From: Nitratifractor salsuginis DSM 16511
GTDB lineage: Bacteria; Campylobacterota; Campylobacteria; Campylobacterales; Sulfurovaceae
DNA: 64,000 nucleotides
Direction of reading: 5' to 3'
Assembly (NCBI RefSeq): GCF_000186245.1
Contig: NC_014935.1
Coordinates: forward strand, 1,736,001-1,800,000
Made by a program: the position numbers and the translations under genes. Position 1 is the stretch's first letter; each line of letters starts with the position of its first letter. The notes under the pieces were generated by a model that was not told where the DNA came from, made no database searches, and worked only from the letters and a program-made list of their open reading frames with translations. Of this stretch, positions 4,313 to 58,617 are shown in pieces.

Positions 4313-5710
4313 ATGGTAATATTAAGAAAATATGGGCTTATTGCTATGACGGTAGGTGGCGTAGTTTTGTTGGTCGGATGCGGAGGGGGCGGTGGAACGC
4401 CCCCGGTATCCCAAAATGGTGTTTGCAATAAGTTCGTCCCACAATGGACAAAGCAAACCCGTTCCATACAGAGCGTTGATGACATCAAAAAAGCTCTATC
4501 CCCTGCCTGGATCATCAAAAACGGTGACTTTTATATGTTGAGTAAAGGGGCCGTTCAAATCTCCGAAAAATCGAGCTCTTCTACAAAGCGGATTTTCAAA
4601 CGTATGGCGAGCGGGAAGTGGATGCTGCAGACGTTGGATAAGAGAAAAGAGGCGTCGCTCATAGGTATACAGTTGCGCGTCGCAGATCAAAACTGGACCT
4701 ATGAGTGTCAATTCGGCGGAACCCTGAGCTTTACAAACGACAGTGTGGAAAACGATTTCAAATACACCTACCGTTTCTCGGAGTGTGAAGATTCCTCTGA
4801 AATCATGGAAAAACTGTTTGACGCTTTGTTTAACGGAGAGCCCATGGCCCAGCCGGAGCCTGAATCCAACGATACGATTTTCCATTACAATGGGACCGTC
4901 TCTGAAGAATTGAAAGAGTGTGGAGAAGAATCTTGTGCCTATGCCGAGGAGTTGAGCTTCAATGCATCACAGTTCTCGGCAACAACGGTACGGAGTGATG
5001 AAGACGTCAACGGTTCCTTCGGTATGAACCTCTCACTCTGGGCAGGGGCAGGACCCGACAGCGACGATATCCATTACGCTTCACTCCAAGCCGACGGATG
5101 CGTTGCCATTGACGGCACGGACAACGACGGATACCTGCTCAAAGCGAATCTAAGTTTCAACCGGTTAAATGTCGATATCAACTCTACGACAGAGATCGAA
5201 CCTCTCGTGCGACAGCAGGGCAAGAGTATGGCTCAAAACCATAGCAATGAACCGGAGCGTGTCCGTGTGAACCTGGATGGCTATGCCGGTCTGCAGGGGC
5301 AGTTCCGTGAAGATGACGAGAGCAATCTTACCTCTCTGGATTCCTATCAGTTCTATGCCGAGGGGGTGACCATCGACAATGTTTACGACAATGATAGCGA
5401 AGACGACAATCTCACCGTCAGTGGAAAGTTCGGTGACGCTTGTATGCAGGGAGTCGTCACCTACCAGGGTACCGTAGGGCCCCAATGGAATGACAAAAGT
5501 GTTCCTATGGATGGCAACCTCAGTCTGAACGACGGTGAAGCGACGGTCGTCTTCAATGAGGAAAACGTCACATTCCTGAACAACAGTGGGGGTATACTTC
5601 AAACCTTTGTCGGTGGACCCGATGAAAATGTTTCCTGGGACGATTTGACCGATCCACAATGTAGCAAAATCTACCGTGATCTCTTGGACAATTTCTTCCC
5701 GTTTCAATAA
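4313..5710 (+). CDS. Large lipoprotein of unknown function
   Basis: A 465-residue lipoprotein with signal VGGVVLLVGCGGGGG (lipobox LVGC, Cys about 23) behind an ideal Shine-Dalgarno (AAGGAGGATA). The mature part is acidic, rich in Asp, Asn, Ser and Glu, with repeated strand-like stretches and several paired cysteines (SECEDSSE, KECGEESCAYAEE). This suggests a secreted beta-rich, possibly calcium-binding surface protein, which is inference from composition. No domain was recognised. It ends 11 bases before a bidirectional terminator hairpin and is monocistronic. The AT-rich upstream region (4180-4312) should hold its promoter. Confidence 0.7.
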   Translation: MVILRKYGLIAMTVGGVVLLVGCGGGGGTPPVSQNGVCNKFVPQWTKQTRSIQSVDDIKKALSPAWIIKNGDFYMLSKGAVQISEKSSSSTKRIFKRMASGKWMLQTLDKRKEASLIGIQLRVADQNWTYECQFGGTLSFTNDSVENDFKYTYRFSECEDSSEIMEKLFDALFNGEPMAQPEPESNDTIFHYNGTVSEELKECGEESCAYAEELSFNASQFSATTVRSDEDVNGSFGMNLSLWAGAGPDSDDIHYASLQADGCVAIDGTDNDGYLLKANLSFNRLNVDINSTTEIEPLVRQQGKSMAQNHSNEPERVRVNLDGYAGLQGQFREDDESNLTSLDSYQFYAEGVTIDNVYDNDSEDDNLTVSGKFGDACMQGVVTYQGTVGPQWNDKSVPMDGNLSLNDGEATVVFNEENVTFLNNSGGILQTFVGGPDENVSWDDLTDPQCSKIYRDLLDNFFPFQ

Positions 5711-5741: not shown

Positions 5742-6254
5742 TCAGTGGGGATGGACGATACCTTTCAAGAATATTTTTCGACGCTCGATGCCCAAGAGTG
5801 TCGGACGGGTCAGGTCGGGGTAGGTTCCGTGCAAGCCTTTGCCATCCAGCCCGTGACACCCGGCGCAGACACTGCTGAAATACATTTGCGCATCCCGGGA
5901 ATAGGAGTGAGGGCATCGATGGCCGCCAAGCTTCATCACATAGCATGCAATCTCCGGAGCCGACTCTGGCGGCACATATCCCCCCTCCATTTCACCGCCG
6001 GGAAATCCCAGGGTATGGGAACCGTGATTGATCACATTGACGATATAGTGGTAAAGGTATTCCGGCGTATCGATTTGCCGCAGCTCCTCTCTTGCCTTAT
6101 CTCTGTCTATCGAAGGCTTTGATATGAGCGAGGAGGGGCTTTGATGGATAGAGTGTTCATTTGCCCTCTTCCGCAAACTTTCTATGACCCCATAAAGCAC
6201 CAGAGCCACAATGATCACAACCGTCAATCGGATGGTCCAGCGCCAATATTTTAT
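5742..6254 (-). CDS. Membrane-anchored c-type cytochrome-like protein, apparently ATA start and short C-terminus
   Basis: An N-terminal membrane anchor (VVIIVALVLYGVIESL) is followed by a periplasmic part with one haem motif, CAGCH, 35 residues from the end. Residues before it (LGFPGGEMEGGYVPP) look like the distal half of a first cytochrome domain that has lost its own CXXCH, as in two-domain CcoP-like proteins. The chain stops at GIVHPH with no Met ligand after CAGCH. A strong AAGGAG (6261-6266) sits 6 bases before ATA at 6252-6254, which would give MKYWRWTIRL ahead of the anchor. The first conventional start is TTG at 6227, with no Shine-Dalgarno. Either an ATA start is used or the gene is decaying. 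Electron-transfer role inferred. Confidence 0.55.
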   Translation of the reverse strand: MKYWRWTIRLTVVIIVALVLYGVIESLRKRANEHSIHQSPSSLISKPSIDRDKAREELRQIDTPEYLYHYIVNVINHGSHTLGFPGGEMEGGYVPPESAPEIACYVMKLGGHRCPHSYSRDAQMYFSSVCAGCHGLDGKGLHGTYPDLTRPTLLGIERRKIFLKGIVHPH

Positions 6255-27107: not shown

Positions 27108-27207
27108 TGGGGGGTATGTGATCCTGGTGGACACCGCGGGCTTCAAACCCGATCGTCCGGGCGGATGACCGTCCGGAGGGAGGTTCGATTCCTCCACCCT
27201 CTCGCCA
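27108..27207 (+). tRNA. selC: tRNA-Sec (anticodon UCA)
   Basis: About 100 nt, too long for an ordinary tRNA. The anticodon loop CTTCAAA lies between CGGG and CCCG. A 9-bp variable arm TCCGGGCGG-ATGA-CCGTCCGGA, the T arm GGAGG-TTCGATT-CCTCC, and an encoded GCCA end complete it. The long variable arm and UCA anticodon are diagnostic of selenocysteine tRNA. The acceptor stem is imperfect: GGGGGGT (5') against ACCCTCT gives two G-U pairs, and the outermost pair (T27108-C27203) mismatches. A phage integrase gene follows within 185 bp, so the 3' end is the likely attachment site. Confidence 0.9.
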
Positions 27208-27390: not shown

Positions 27391-28557
27391 ATGGCACGCG
27401 GGGTGGTACCTTTGAGCGATACGAAGATCAGGCAGGCGAAACCTAGAGAGAAACCGTATAAGCTTTTCGATGGAGGTGGGCTCTATCTCTATGTGTCACC
27501 GAAAGGGGCAAAGAGCTGGAGGATGAAATATCGGCATCCGGTAACCAAAAAAGACCAGACCATCACATTCGGCCTCTACCCCGGCATCTCACTCAAACGG
27601 GCCAGGGAGATGCGCGAAGAGGTACGCTCCGCATTGATAGATGGGCTCGATCCCAAATGCCCGGCCGGTGAAGAGGTGAGGTTTCGGGATCTGGCTACCG
27701 AGTGGCTGGATCTGCAAAAGATCGGCAACAAACATAGGCGTTTCCAGCGCGGGCGGCTGGACAACCATATCAATCCCCGGATAGGCGATCTGCCGATAGA
27801 CAAGATCACGAGGCGGGACGTGGCGCGGGTGCTGACGGAGGTCTACGCCGCAGGCAAAGAGGAGACGGCCGGGCGATTGCACTCGATCATCACGTCGGTC
27901 CTGAGATACGCGGTGGCCAGAGGGCTGATCGAGCACAATGTCGCAGCGGATATTGACCGCGCGACCTTGATCCCGCCGCCAGAGAAAAAACACTTGCGCA
28001 CGATCACCAACCCGAAAGAGATCGGGCACTTTGTCCAGGCAGTCAAAGAGTACCCCGGGTATTGGGTCACCAGCCGCGCGCTCCTGCTGCAACTCTACAC
28101 CGCCACTCGACCGGGAGAAGCGCGGGGGATGCGCTGGGATGAGATCGACGGTGATCTCTGGCATATCCCGGCCCATCGAATGAAAATGAAACGCCCCCAC
28201 ACCGTGCCGCTTTCAGTCCCGGCCCGACAGATCATCGAAGAGATGCGGGGATTCTGCGGGGATTCCGAGTTTGTATTCCCCTCCCCTTTTTCCAAGACGC
28301 GGCCAATCAGCAACAACACGGTCAATGTAGCGATCAAGCGCATCGGTTATGGGGACAAGCTCGTCGCACACGGTTTGCGCTCGATGTTCTCGACCATAGC
28401 ACACGAGCAGAGCGGATTCCCTCACGAAGTAATTGAGGCACAGCTGGCCCACGCTACCGGCTCCGAGGTTAGCCGGGCCTACAACCGGGCTGAATACCTC
28501 GATGAGCGCCGCAAACTGGTGGAATGGTGGGCTGGGTGGCTAGAGGGGCTGGCCTAG
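27391..28557 (+). CDS. int: Tyrosine integrase, P4/DUF4102 type
   Basis: 388 residues. The N-terminal arm-binding domain (LSDTKIRQAKPREKPYKLFDGGGLYLYVSPKGAKSW) is typical of tRNA-targeting P4-type integrases. It is followed by a SAM-like core-binding domain (about 95-180) and the catalytic domain with R240 (TRPGEARG), H327 and R330 (HGLRSMF), H354 and nucleophile Y364 (SRAYNRAEYLDERR). AGGAGG lies upstream of the ATG. Position next to selC defines it as the enzyme that integrated this prophage. A diverged copy of its last 100 bp occurs at 29877-29976. Confidence 0.95.
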   Translation: MARGVVPLSDTKIRQAKPREKPYKLFDGGGLYLYVSPKGAKSWRMKYRHPVTKKDQTITFGLYPGISLKRAREMREEVRSALIDGLDPKCPAGEEVRFRDLATEWLDLQKIGNKHRRFQRGRLDNHINPRIGDLPIDKITRRDVARVLTEVYAAGKEETAGRLHSIITSVLRYAVARGLIEHNVAADIDRATLIPPPEKKHLRTITNPKEIGHFVQAVKEYPGYWVTSRALLLQLYTATRPGEARGMRWDEIDGDLWHIPAHRMKMKRPHTVPLSVPARQIIEEMRGFCGDSEFVFPSPFSKTRPISNNTVNVAIKRIGYGDKLVAHGLRSMFSTIAHEQSGFPHEVIEAQLAHATGSEVSRAYNRAEYLDERRKLVEWWAGWLEGLA

Positions 28558-29775: not shown

Positions 29776-29880
29776 TGATGCCCTTTTACTGCTGCATACC
29801 ACAGCCTCACAGTCCACGGCGGGAAGATAGTCGCTTTGATTTGGTAGCCACACGCTCCATAACAGCCTGGGAACATCGGC
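29776..29880 (-). pseudogene. Remnant of a DUF1353-protein gene
   Basis: Matches two parts of the intact DUF1353 gene: 30821-30863 (TGATnCCC..., GCATACCACA, CTCAC.GTCCACG) and 30956-31017 (AGATAGTCGCTTTGATTTGG, GCTCCATAACAGCC.GGGAACATCGGC), with about 92 bp between them missing. Same orientation as the intact gene. It joins the integrase remnant at the short shared sequence ATCGGC(T/G)CC. Confidence 0.75.
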
Positions 29881-29976
29881 TCCGAGGTTAGTCGGGCCTA
29901 CAACCGGGCCGAATATCTCGATGAGCGCCGCAAATTGGTAGAATGGTGGGCTCAGTGGTTGGAGGGGCTGGGATAG
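29877..29976 (+). pseudogene. Remnant of a second integrase (3' end)
   Basis: One hundred bases matching the integrase 3' end (28458-28557) at about 89% identity and in the same frame, including the Tyr nucleophile region and ending in TAG. Nearly all differences are silent; only two residues change (Gly to Gln, Ala to Gly). It therefore comes from a related but separate integrase rather than a fresh copy of the resident gene. The non-coding TAGTCACAATTTGGTCACA that follows also recurs after the resident integrase (28655). Confidence 0.85.
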
Positions 29977-53275: not shown

Positions 53276-54011
53276 CTGCCGCTCCTTCTTCATCGATCAT
53301 CCCATTCTCAATCATCCAACCGAGTGAGCCTTTTTGCGGTCCCCCGTGTTGAGTGCTCGTTGTCGGCTTACTCGGGGCAAAGAGCCCCTGGTAGCCGTTG
53401 GCTATCGAGAAATCCACCTTTTCGGCAAAACCTGCGGGATCGGCTTTGTAATCCTCGAGCAGCTTTTTGACGGTAATGGCCTTGATCGGCTTTTTAATTT
53501 CTTTGCGATAGCTGATCCATTCCTGGAGCTTTTCGGGGATCTCTTCCCCCTGGGGGGATTTGGGGGGAGTAGTCTCTGCTGTAGTCTCTGTGTAGTCTCT
53601 ATCAAAAGATTTATCATTAATAGTTTCCCCCTTTCGGGGAGTACAGTTTCCCCCATTGGTGGAATCTAGTTTCCCCCTTTCGGGGATACTTGTTTCCCCA
53701 GCCTCGATCGCTTCATAGAGCTTTTCCCAATCAATTTCGTAGTAGGTTTTTGCGGGAACACCTTCTCTGGTAATCGAAATAAATGGAAGCGTTTTAAGTA
53801 TCTTTTTGGCATTCTCAAGCTCCTTTTTTGTCAGGAGCGTTTCTTCCATTATCTTGGCATCTGTCTTGTAGATCTTGTCCTTCTGTTGAAGCCAGTAGAT
53901 AAGTTGGGATAGGAGAACTCCGGCAGTTGTAGAGCCGGTGATTTTCCGATAGATCGGGTAGTATGCGATTGGCTGCTGATTGAGCGCCTTCATAACCGAT
54001 TTGATGCTCAT
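53256..54011 (-). CDS. Phage replication protein (N-terminal winged-helix type)
   Basis: 251 residues. N-terminal winged helix (ALNQQPIAYYPIYRKITGSTTAGVLLSQLIYWLQQKDKIYKTDAKIMEETLLTKKELENAKKIL) as found in DnaD-like/phage replication initiators, a Thr/Pro-rich linker at 120-150, and a helical C-terminal domain (WISYRKEIKKPIKAITVKKLLEDYKADPAGFAEKVDFSIANGYQGLF) of the replisome-organiser kind. Origin not located. Confidence 0.7.
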   Translation of the reverse strand: MSIKSVMKALNQQPIAYYPIYRKITGSTTAGVLLSQLIYWLQQKDKIYKTDAKIMEETLLTKKELENAKKILKTLPFISITREGVPAKTYYEIDWEKLYEAIEAGETSIPERGKLDSTNGGNCTPRKGETINDKSFDRDYTETTAETTPPKSPQGEEIPEKLQEWISYRKEIKKPIKAITVKKLLEDYKADPAGFAEKVDFSIANGYQGLFAPSKPTTSTQHGGPQKGSLGWMIENGMIDEEGAADAEVID

Positions 54012-57626: not shown

Positions 57627-57733
57627 TAACACTATCAGAACATCAGTTCTGAGCTCATTGACAACCCAGCCGGTGCCAGGCAACCGGTTATGAAACTCCC
57701 GAGCGAGGCAAAGAGGGAGAAGAGCTTGACACT

Positions 57734-57764
57734 ACCCCTATGCGTCTATTAGTCGTATAGGGGT
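57734..57764 (+). ncRNA. Hairpin in the right early leader
   Basis: ACCCCTAT (57734-57741) pairs perfectly with ATAGGGGT (57757-57764) around a 15-nt loop. Upstream CCGGT...ACCGG and CTCCC...GGGAG arms (57672-57718) make the leader highly structured. Confidence 0.45.
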
Positions 57765-57779
57765 GGTTTCGACCACAGT

Positions 57780-57829
57780 GCACAGCACGGCACGGCAGAG
57801 CACTGCAATGCACAGCATGGCATGGCAGC
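57780..57829 (+). repeat. Pentanucleotide-periodic tract 1 (GCANN x10)
   Basis: Ten consecutive five-base units all starting GCA: CA, CG, CG, GA, CT, AT, CA, TG, TG and GC as the variable pairs. A five-base period gives no stable reading frame. Confidence 0.8.
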
Positions 57830-57842
57830 TAAAAGAATTGCA

Positions 57843-57864
57843 CCGCTCCATCGAGGTGGAGCGG
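57843..57864 (+). ncRNA. Hairpin between the two periodic tracts
   Basis: CCGCTCCA-TCGAGG-TGGAGCGG, perfect 8-bp stem. The core CCATCGAGGTGG and its flanks (CACC.GCCC, GGATGGA) recur at 57955-57985 after the second periodic tract. Confidence 0.5.
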
Positions 57865-57887
57865 ATGGAGTTCTTTGGGACTCCGAC

Positions 57888-57957
57888 GCAGGGCAATGCA
57901 AAGATCAGTATCGCGGGACAAAGCATCGCAAAGCAAGGCATTTAGAAGCAACGCACC
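57888..57957 (+). repeat. Pentanucleotide-periodic tract 2 (GCANN, interrupted)
   Basis: In one continuous five-base phase: GCAGG GCAAT GCAAA, four degenerate units, GCATC GCAAA GCAAG GCATT, one degenerate unit, GCAAC GCACC. Same sequence class as tract 1. Confidence 0.75.
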
Positions 57958-58020
57958 AGCCCATCGAGGTGGTTTGGATGGATCGCTTTGACGACTACAT
58001 CAAACAAAAAAGGATCAAAA

Positions 58021-58617
58021 ATGGCTATCCAAAATCTTGAAGCCACGATCACCGGAATCGCTCCTCTTCTTCTCAATAATCCCCAGGCGGTTGACCCGTT
58101 CAACCGATACAGCCGGGCGATGAAGCAGATCACTGCAAAGCGCAAAAAGACGGATGACGACCTGCTGGAGCTGAGAAAACTCGAAATCGAAACGAAGCTC
58201 TACTGGGATGATGACCTCGGCGTCTATGTCCCCTCCACTTGGATACTGGCAGCGCTGGCGAAAACGTCGTTCAAAAAAGCGAAGATCGCCAAAGCCGAGA
58301 TTCGCGCTGGAGTGTTTGCCGTCGAACCTAAACTCAAACTCAACTATGACGGGATGGACAAGGTCAAGAAGATCGAGGATGTGGTGGGCAACAGCCGATT
58401 CCACACTCAGCTCATCCTTCCCCAAGGACAGGTGCGGGTATCGAAAGCCGCACCGATCTTCCACAAATGGAGCTTCGACTTCTCCCTGGAGTTCGATGAC
58501 GAGATCATCGACCGGCGCACGCTCATAGGACTGCTCGAATATAGCGCCAAATACGGAGGCTTCGGAGACTTCCGCCCCAGCTACGGACGCGCCAAAATGG
58601 AAGCGCACGATGAATAA
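58021..58617 (+). CDS. Phage early protein, possible RAMP-like fold
   Basis: 198 residues. First gene of the rightward early operon. Begins IQNLEATITGIAPLLLNNPQAVDP, middle ETKLYWDDDLGVYVPSTWILAALAKTSFK, end APIFHKWSFDFSLEFDDEIIDRRTLIGLLEYSAKYGGFGDFRPSYGRAKM. The 'G.a pLL.n', the strand with W, and the C-terminal GG.GdfRPsyGR resemble the ferredoxin-like RAMP/Cas7-type proteins and a widespread phage family found next to recombination genes. Family name not known to me; fold is a hypothesis. Confidence 0.6.
   Translation: MAIQNLEATITGIAPLLLNNPQAVDPFNRYSRAMKQITAKRKKTDDDLLELRKLEIETKLYWDDDLGVYVPSTWILAALAKTSFKKAKIAKAEIRAGVFAVEPKLKLNYDGMDKVKKIEDVVGNSRFHTQLILPQGQVRVSKAAPIFHKWSFDFSLEFDDEIIDRRTLIGLLEYSAKYGGFGDFRPSYGRAKMEAHDE

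Follow-up and report, generated by a model that had tools for sequence, protein, structure and literature searches.

A GCA/NN pentamer array beside a Vipr homologue in a Nitratifractor salsuginis prophage: a very probable VIPR guide-RNA locus

Introduction

The closest described counterpart of the locus studied here is VIPR (Viral Interference Programmable Repeat), a recently described phage system directed against other viruses, in which a RAMP protein, Vipr, is combined with guide RNAs, the vrRNAs, and with an accessory gene, vap (PMC13142463, bioRxiv 2026). As set out in the main text of that preprint, a vrRNA consists of 9-16 GGY/NN pentamers followed by an invariant tail, and the NN dinucleotides recognise double-stranded DNA with one base skipped after each, which results in transcriptional repression; the type II VIPR of SUSP1 is presented there as an experimentally tested guide system, and VIPR is proposed as a forerunner of the CRISPR RAMP systems (PMC13142463). 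The same text admits ‘a related consensus’ besides GGY, for which it points to fig. S17 (PMC13142463).

Here we analyse a pentamer tract in a 64,000-nucleotide stretch of the Nitratifractor salsuginis DSM 16511 genome (hereafter the window, to which all coordinates refer). Pentamers made of a fixed triplet and two further nucleotides also occur in trp leader RNA, where TRAP binds GAGNN repeats. We find that the tract is very probably a two-unit vrRNA array upstream of a prophage vipr and vap, a reading that rests on the protein, the vap gene, the anatomy of the array and its tail. VIPR itself is already known; the GCA/NN form of this array departs from the GGY/NN of the preprint's main text.

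Results

The tract is a duplicated unit of probable guide and tail

The initial annotation of this DNA described ten uninterrupted GCANN units, a hairpin, a second tract in a new phase and a repeat of the hairpin core, and all four were recovered. The ten-unit run of GCA at a 5-nt step stands out: among all other trinucleotides of the window the longest such run is 3, and Markov-1 shuffles (n=60) never exceeded 4, whatever the trinucleotide. The hairpin that follows, CCGCTCCA/TGGAGCGG, has a fold z of -3.4, and the second tract lies in a different phase, though four of its units are broken (GAT, GTA, GCG and ACA). The core CCATCGAGGTGG at 57848-57859 recurs at 57961-57972, a step of 113 nt, and a repeat search aligned the two copies of the unit over 72 nt with 71% identity. 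The two tract halves are a single duplicated unit, and the array comprises two guide-plus-tail units of about 113 nt. Three units after the ten-unit run, TAAAA GAATT GCACC, are common to the second copy and look like the start of the tail as opposed to part of the guide. The first hairpin is the tail of vrRNA1 and the second CCATCGAGGTGG copy is part of the vrRNA2 tail; tail 1 folds well and tail 2 folds poorly.

Upstream of the array lies a 43-bp gapped palindrome that occurs once in the window and was absent from shuffled sequences. No consensus sigma-70 promoter was found, and Rfam gave no match on the element itself. Some 4 kb before it, the window also holds two neighbouring short tandem arrays, one with an 11-nt unit, GTAGTCTCTGCT (53569-53600), and one with a 23-nt unit, AGTTTCCCCCTTTCGGGGATAC (53622-53699).

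Table 1. Features of the putative VIPR locus and of the prophage's own integrase (window coordinates)
Feature	Position	Strand	Basis
Prophage's own P4-like tyrosine integrase	27391..28557	+	sequence comparison
Own-integrase site homologous to the proposed guide 1 target, ERRKLVEWWA, 16/20	28504..28533	+	skip-1 search
Inverted repeat GACACTACCCCTAT...ATAGGGGTGGTTTC, possible operator	57728..57770	.	repeat search
Putative vrRNA1 guide, 10 GCANN, NN = CA CG CG GA CT AT CA TG TG GC	57780..57829	+	tract run, skip-1 integrase match
Putative vrRNA1 tail: linker, hairpin 57843-57864, second hairpin 57867-57884	57830..57884	+	fold, repeated core, covariation in relatives
Putative vrRNA2 guide, 11 units including 4 broken, NN = GG AT AA CA TC GG AA TC AA AG TT	57888..57942	+	sequence, alignment to copy 1
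Putative vrRNA2 tail (approximate end)	57943..57997	+	core common with tail 1; weak fold
vipr homologue, RAMP protein, 198 aa, phrog_4652	58021..58617	+	profile match, BLAST, structure model
vap homologue, 141 aa	58610..59035	+	BLAST, iterated HMM

The adjoining genes encode homologues of Vipr and Vap

The gene that follows the array matches phrog_4652, a family of unassigned function (E=1.6e-60), and its product is 32% identical to SUSP1 Vipr over 195 aa (E=1e-27). We took agp039 as SUSP1 Vipr because this homologue sits among GGY repeats, which we re-found in the SUSP1 sequence. An AlphaFold2 model of the window protein (pLDDT 89) has as its top structural matches only CRISPR RAMPs, among them Csm3, type VII Cas7, Cmr and Cas7-11 (Z 11), and the protein is thus predicted to adopt a Cas7/Csm3-type RAMP fold. 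Close to its C-terminus is a GFGDFRPTFGR-like motif in which R185, P186 and G189 are invariant and G180 and G182 nearly so; we infer that this is the glycine-rich loop (G-loop) of VIPR. The next gene resembles SUSP1 vap1 weakly by BLAST and clearly by iterated HMM, and vap homologues lie on the same strand in 78 of 97 loci, SUSP1 vap1 included. Pfam, PADLOC and NCBIfam returned no match for vipr or vap, apart from one meaningless sub-threshold Pfam match for vap.

The scan of the genes around vipr identified vap, ERF, YqaJ and a repressor besides unknowns, and no other cas genes. The location given initially, between operators and the first gene of a recombination operon, holds in part: the tract is in the prophage early region, after the 43-bp inverted repeat, but the next gene is the vipr homologue and the ERF/YqaJ-type genes come later. 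A recombination role for the tract as such is not supported. The suggestion of a multimeric protein partner is supported, since the likely partner is a RAMP and belongs to a type of protein that forms oligomers on RNA.

Degenerate pentamer tracts accompany Vipr in relatives

Scanning viral contigs for (GCANN)7GCA yielded at least 120 loci, and the matches listed are of two kinds: uniform microsatellites, for example (GCAGG)n or (GCAGA)n, and degenerate tracts whose units retain GCA but differ in NN. Most of the degenerate-tract loci listed encode a homologue of the 58021-58617 product on the same strand, mostly within about 1.2 kb. An HMM search contributed more distant Vipr homologues; among the loci left over, some end near the tract. 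Conversely, 52 loci were fetched through the protein alone and so form a set unbiased towards the GCANN pattern; in most of them the gene strand bears chains of GCA and nearly no other trinucleotide, with L180 (GAA) and L182 (GGC) among the exceptions. GGC tracts are found in Gordonia phage Trine and Mycobacterium phage LittleE, a GGT tract in Felixounavirus VpaE1 and a degenerate G[CAT]A triplet in several relatives. CGC/NN tracts were seen beside Vipr relatives in L052 and L108.

Labelled by triplet, 65 Viprs divide into 41 GCA, 12 GGC/GGT, 1 GAA, 1 CGC and 10 with none. In a tree of these proteins, a set enriched for GCA by the route of collection, the window Vipr falls in a clade of 46 (support 100/99) that comprises 35 GCA, 1 GAA and 10 members without a clear motif and has no GGY member; SUSP1 lies outside it. 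Because GCA also appears in other branches, repeated switching of the triplet is probable, an argument weakened by long branches. No clear candidate emerged from a search for residues that would distinguish GCA Viprs from GGY Viprs in different lineages. Within the host family, phrog_4652 has a full-length match in this genome only and a short fragment in a second, and plasmids of Azospirillum and Bradyrhizobium hold six distant Vipr relatives.

The tracts of relatives stand before vipr, after it or on both sides, and some follow vap or form multi-unit arrays. A hairpin stands after most of these array tracts, and its pairing is preserved although its sequence differs between relatives. Thirteen hairpins of equal geometry, picked by eye among those that pair, have 182 of 182 cells paired and compensatory changes in 11 of 14 pairs, a level reached by none of 500 shuffles; given that selection, it is the covariation and not the percentage paired that counts as evidence.

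Several relatives merit separate mention. In L088 two guides of 23-24 GCA units (5261-5383 and 6032-6149) exceed the published 9-16, and L049 (23-281) and L060 contain arrays with a 59-nt step, each unit having about ten GCANN pentamers and a fixed AAACCATCGCCA, with NN differing per unit and no obvious hairpin. The Vibrio phages phiHSIC (ORF22, ORF20) and 1.266.O (NVP1266O_44, _45), our L128 and L129, have VIPR loci of the GCA type, whose products are annotated as hypothetical or coil-containing proteins; the phiHSIC genes are on the strand opposite to most surrounding genes. Rfam, run on the loci of 14 relatives, returned only one tRNA and one CRISPR repeat; a CRISPR-DR4 repeat lies at L082:8094-8121, about 1.1 kb from a GCANN array.

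A probable integrase target of guide 1

Under the 1-nt skip rule of the preprint, guide 1 becomes CAxCGxCGxGAxCTxATxCAxTGxTGxGC, the codons for QRRELMQWWA. An 18-base part of it matches three viral contigs, in each case within a tyrosine integrase and at identical codons. The integrase of L188, recognised as such by a Pfam match, has QRRELMQWWA and agrees with guide 1 at 20/20 positions; those of L187 and L189 have KRRELMQWWA and agree at 19/20. The skips fall on the wobble positions of the codons, and the match extends no further than the GCA run. By a rough estimate of the size of the collection, chance alone would give about 0.1 perfect matches of 20 bases. Comparable patterns from the guides of two other phages gave one match each, both failing on extension, which shows what a chance match looks like.

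We consider it likely that guide 1 targets the integrase gene of rival phages. No target of guide 1 (with up to 2 mismatches) or of guide 2 was found in 175 genomes of the host family, and none of guide 1 (with up to 1 mismatch) in 298 genomes of the class; since the matches are in viral contigs and none is in the host family or class, the natural target is put forward as a proposal. Patterns of 20 and 18 bases from guide 2 had no target in the viral contigs; its forward decoding bears an unconfirmed likeness to a Walker A motif (GxxxxGKS). An all-against-all comparison of 119 guides over 1.2 Mb of fetched loci revealed no excess at any skip from 0 to 3, skip 1 included, and no cross-targeting was found between the two Vibrio phages.

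Within the window, the best skip-1 site of guide 1 is formed by the same codons of the prophage's own integrase, at 16/20. This score is not very rare alone (11 of 200 shuffled guides reach it), and it is expected given the L188 match, because the two integrases are homologous (about 40% identity). As judged from these alignments, guide 1 does fit other integrases better than its own, from which it differs at 4 of 20 positions. A second copy of only the last ~37 integrase codons, scoring 15/20 against guide 1, lies at 29863-29973; it may be left over from another element or belong to an attachment site.

The prophage region is present as a viral contig in IMG/VR, and integrase, repressor and recombination genes lie in the same stretch. 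A selenocysteine tRNA gene (27109-27203) directly precedes the integrase, and for this reason the prophage may be located at selC. This gene is a known hotspot for P4-type integrases.

Discussion

In the mechanism that we propose, each unit would be transcribed as an RNA of roughly 100 nt, along which Vipr subunits would align, one per pentamer, gripping GCA and presenting NN. The complex could then pair with double-stranded DNA in a repeating pattern of two paired bases and one skipped, and transcription would be repressed there. Guide 1 would in this way shut down the integrase gene in competing temperate phages or islands, making it harder for them to integrate or excise, and the prophage's own integrase would be spared through its four mismatches.

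Other explanations of the tract make different predictions about its position, its strand and its variable nucleotides. One is autoregulation, in which the RAMP would attach to GCA repeats in the 5′ leader of the vipr mRNA and thereby regulate the translation of that mRNA, as TRAP does with GAGNN repeats, with no guide function. Such a leader would suit the window as well as L025, L042, L088 and L115, where tracts immediately precede vipr, as would a triplet with a 2-nt spacer in about eleven units, which is reminiscent of TRAP; however, many relatives have their tracts downstream of vipr, past vap or in multi-unit arrays, NN is hypervariable and guide 1 decodes to an integrase motif, and the homologous SUSP1 system is, in the preprint's account, a tested guide system (PMC13142463). 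We regard autoregulation as very unlikely. More unlikely still is a DNA element, with iterons or protein sites phased at half a helical turn in an origin, operator or packaging site. Periodic repeats that adjoin the inverted repeat at 57728-57770 might be expected of one, and origin-like phasing had been raised in the initial annotation; it is at odds with the orientation of GCA, which tracks the gene strand in relatives, with a hairpin that covaries as RNA, and with tracts whose places and numbers vary around one gene family. The idea of an RNA sponge, raised at the same time, likewise finds no support, since hypervariable NN and a covarying hairpin are the anatomy of a VIPR guide RNA.

It remains to consider whether the tract could be a functionless microsatellite or slippage product, or a coding repeat, which we judge to be scarcely credible. 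Some viral-contig matches are indeed uniform arrays; slippage would not, however, produce NN that varies from unit to unit while GCA is kept, and degenerate tracts recur in independent relatives in association with one protein family. As for coding, ORFs traverse the tract on both strands, and the original argument that a five-base period cannot code was mistaken. Its conclusion that selection acts on nucleic acid and not on peptide is nevertheless supported: the tracts of relatives are intergenic and vary at both NN positions, with no conserved protein encoded through them.

With a VIPR guide array as the preferred reading, a large clade that has the same architecture but a different triplet sets the scaffold of the guide apart from its code. 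It also offers possibly orthogonal pairs of Vipr and guide, and guides that can be decoded straight from sequence. The decoding of guide 1 as a conserved integrase motif suggests a contest among prophages over integration. We give roughly even chances to a broader proposal, in which alternative scaffold triplets (GCA, GAA and CGC besides GGY) follow the Vipr lineage, recognition of the triplet having thus changed under a constant 1-nt skip code. In the same proposal, the GCA form of this prophage would silence the integrases of rivals at a conserved protein motif from which synonymous mutation offers no escape, and the contest may be for one and the same attachment site. If the supplement of the preprint lists GCA, the locus is a new member of VIPR with a decoded target.

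Compared with known systems, the locus is closest to the VIPR of SUSP1. The two share homologous Vipr and vap1, a guide built from some ten pentamers in which three bases are kept and two are free, a 3′ tail and an intergenic location in a phage, and guide 1 of the window can be read by a 1-nt skip. They differ in the triplet, which is GCA here and GGY in the main text of the preprint, in the clade of Vipr and in the sequence of the tail, and the window has only two vrRNAs, one of them partly degenerate. With the backbone of class 1 CRISPR-Cas (Csm3, Cas7) the window Vipr shares its predicted RAMP fold; in contrast to those systems, there is a single small RAMP with no other cas genes found beside it, and the guide is gapped as opposed to a contiguous spacer. 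TRAP and the trp leader offer a triplet with a 2-nt spacer in about eleven units, whereas the window has an unrelated protein, another triplet, guide-plus-tail arrays and a decoded DNA target.
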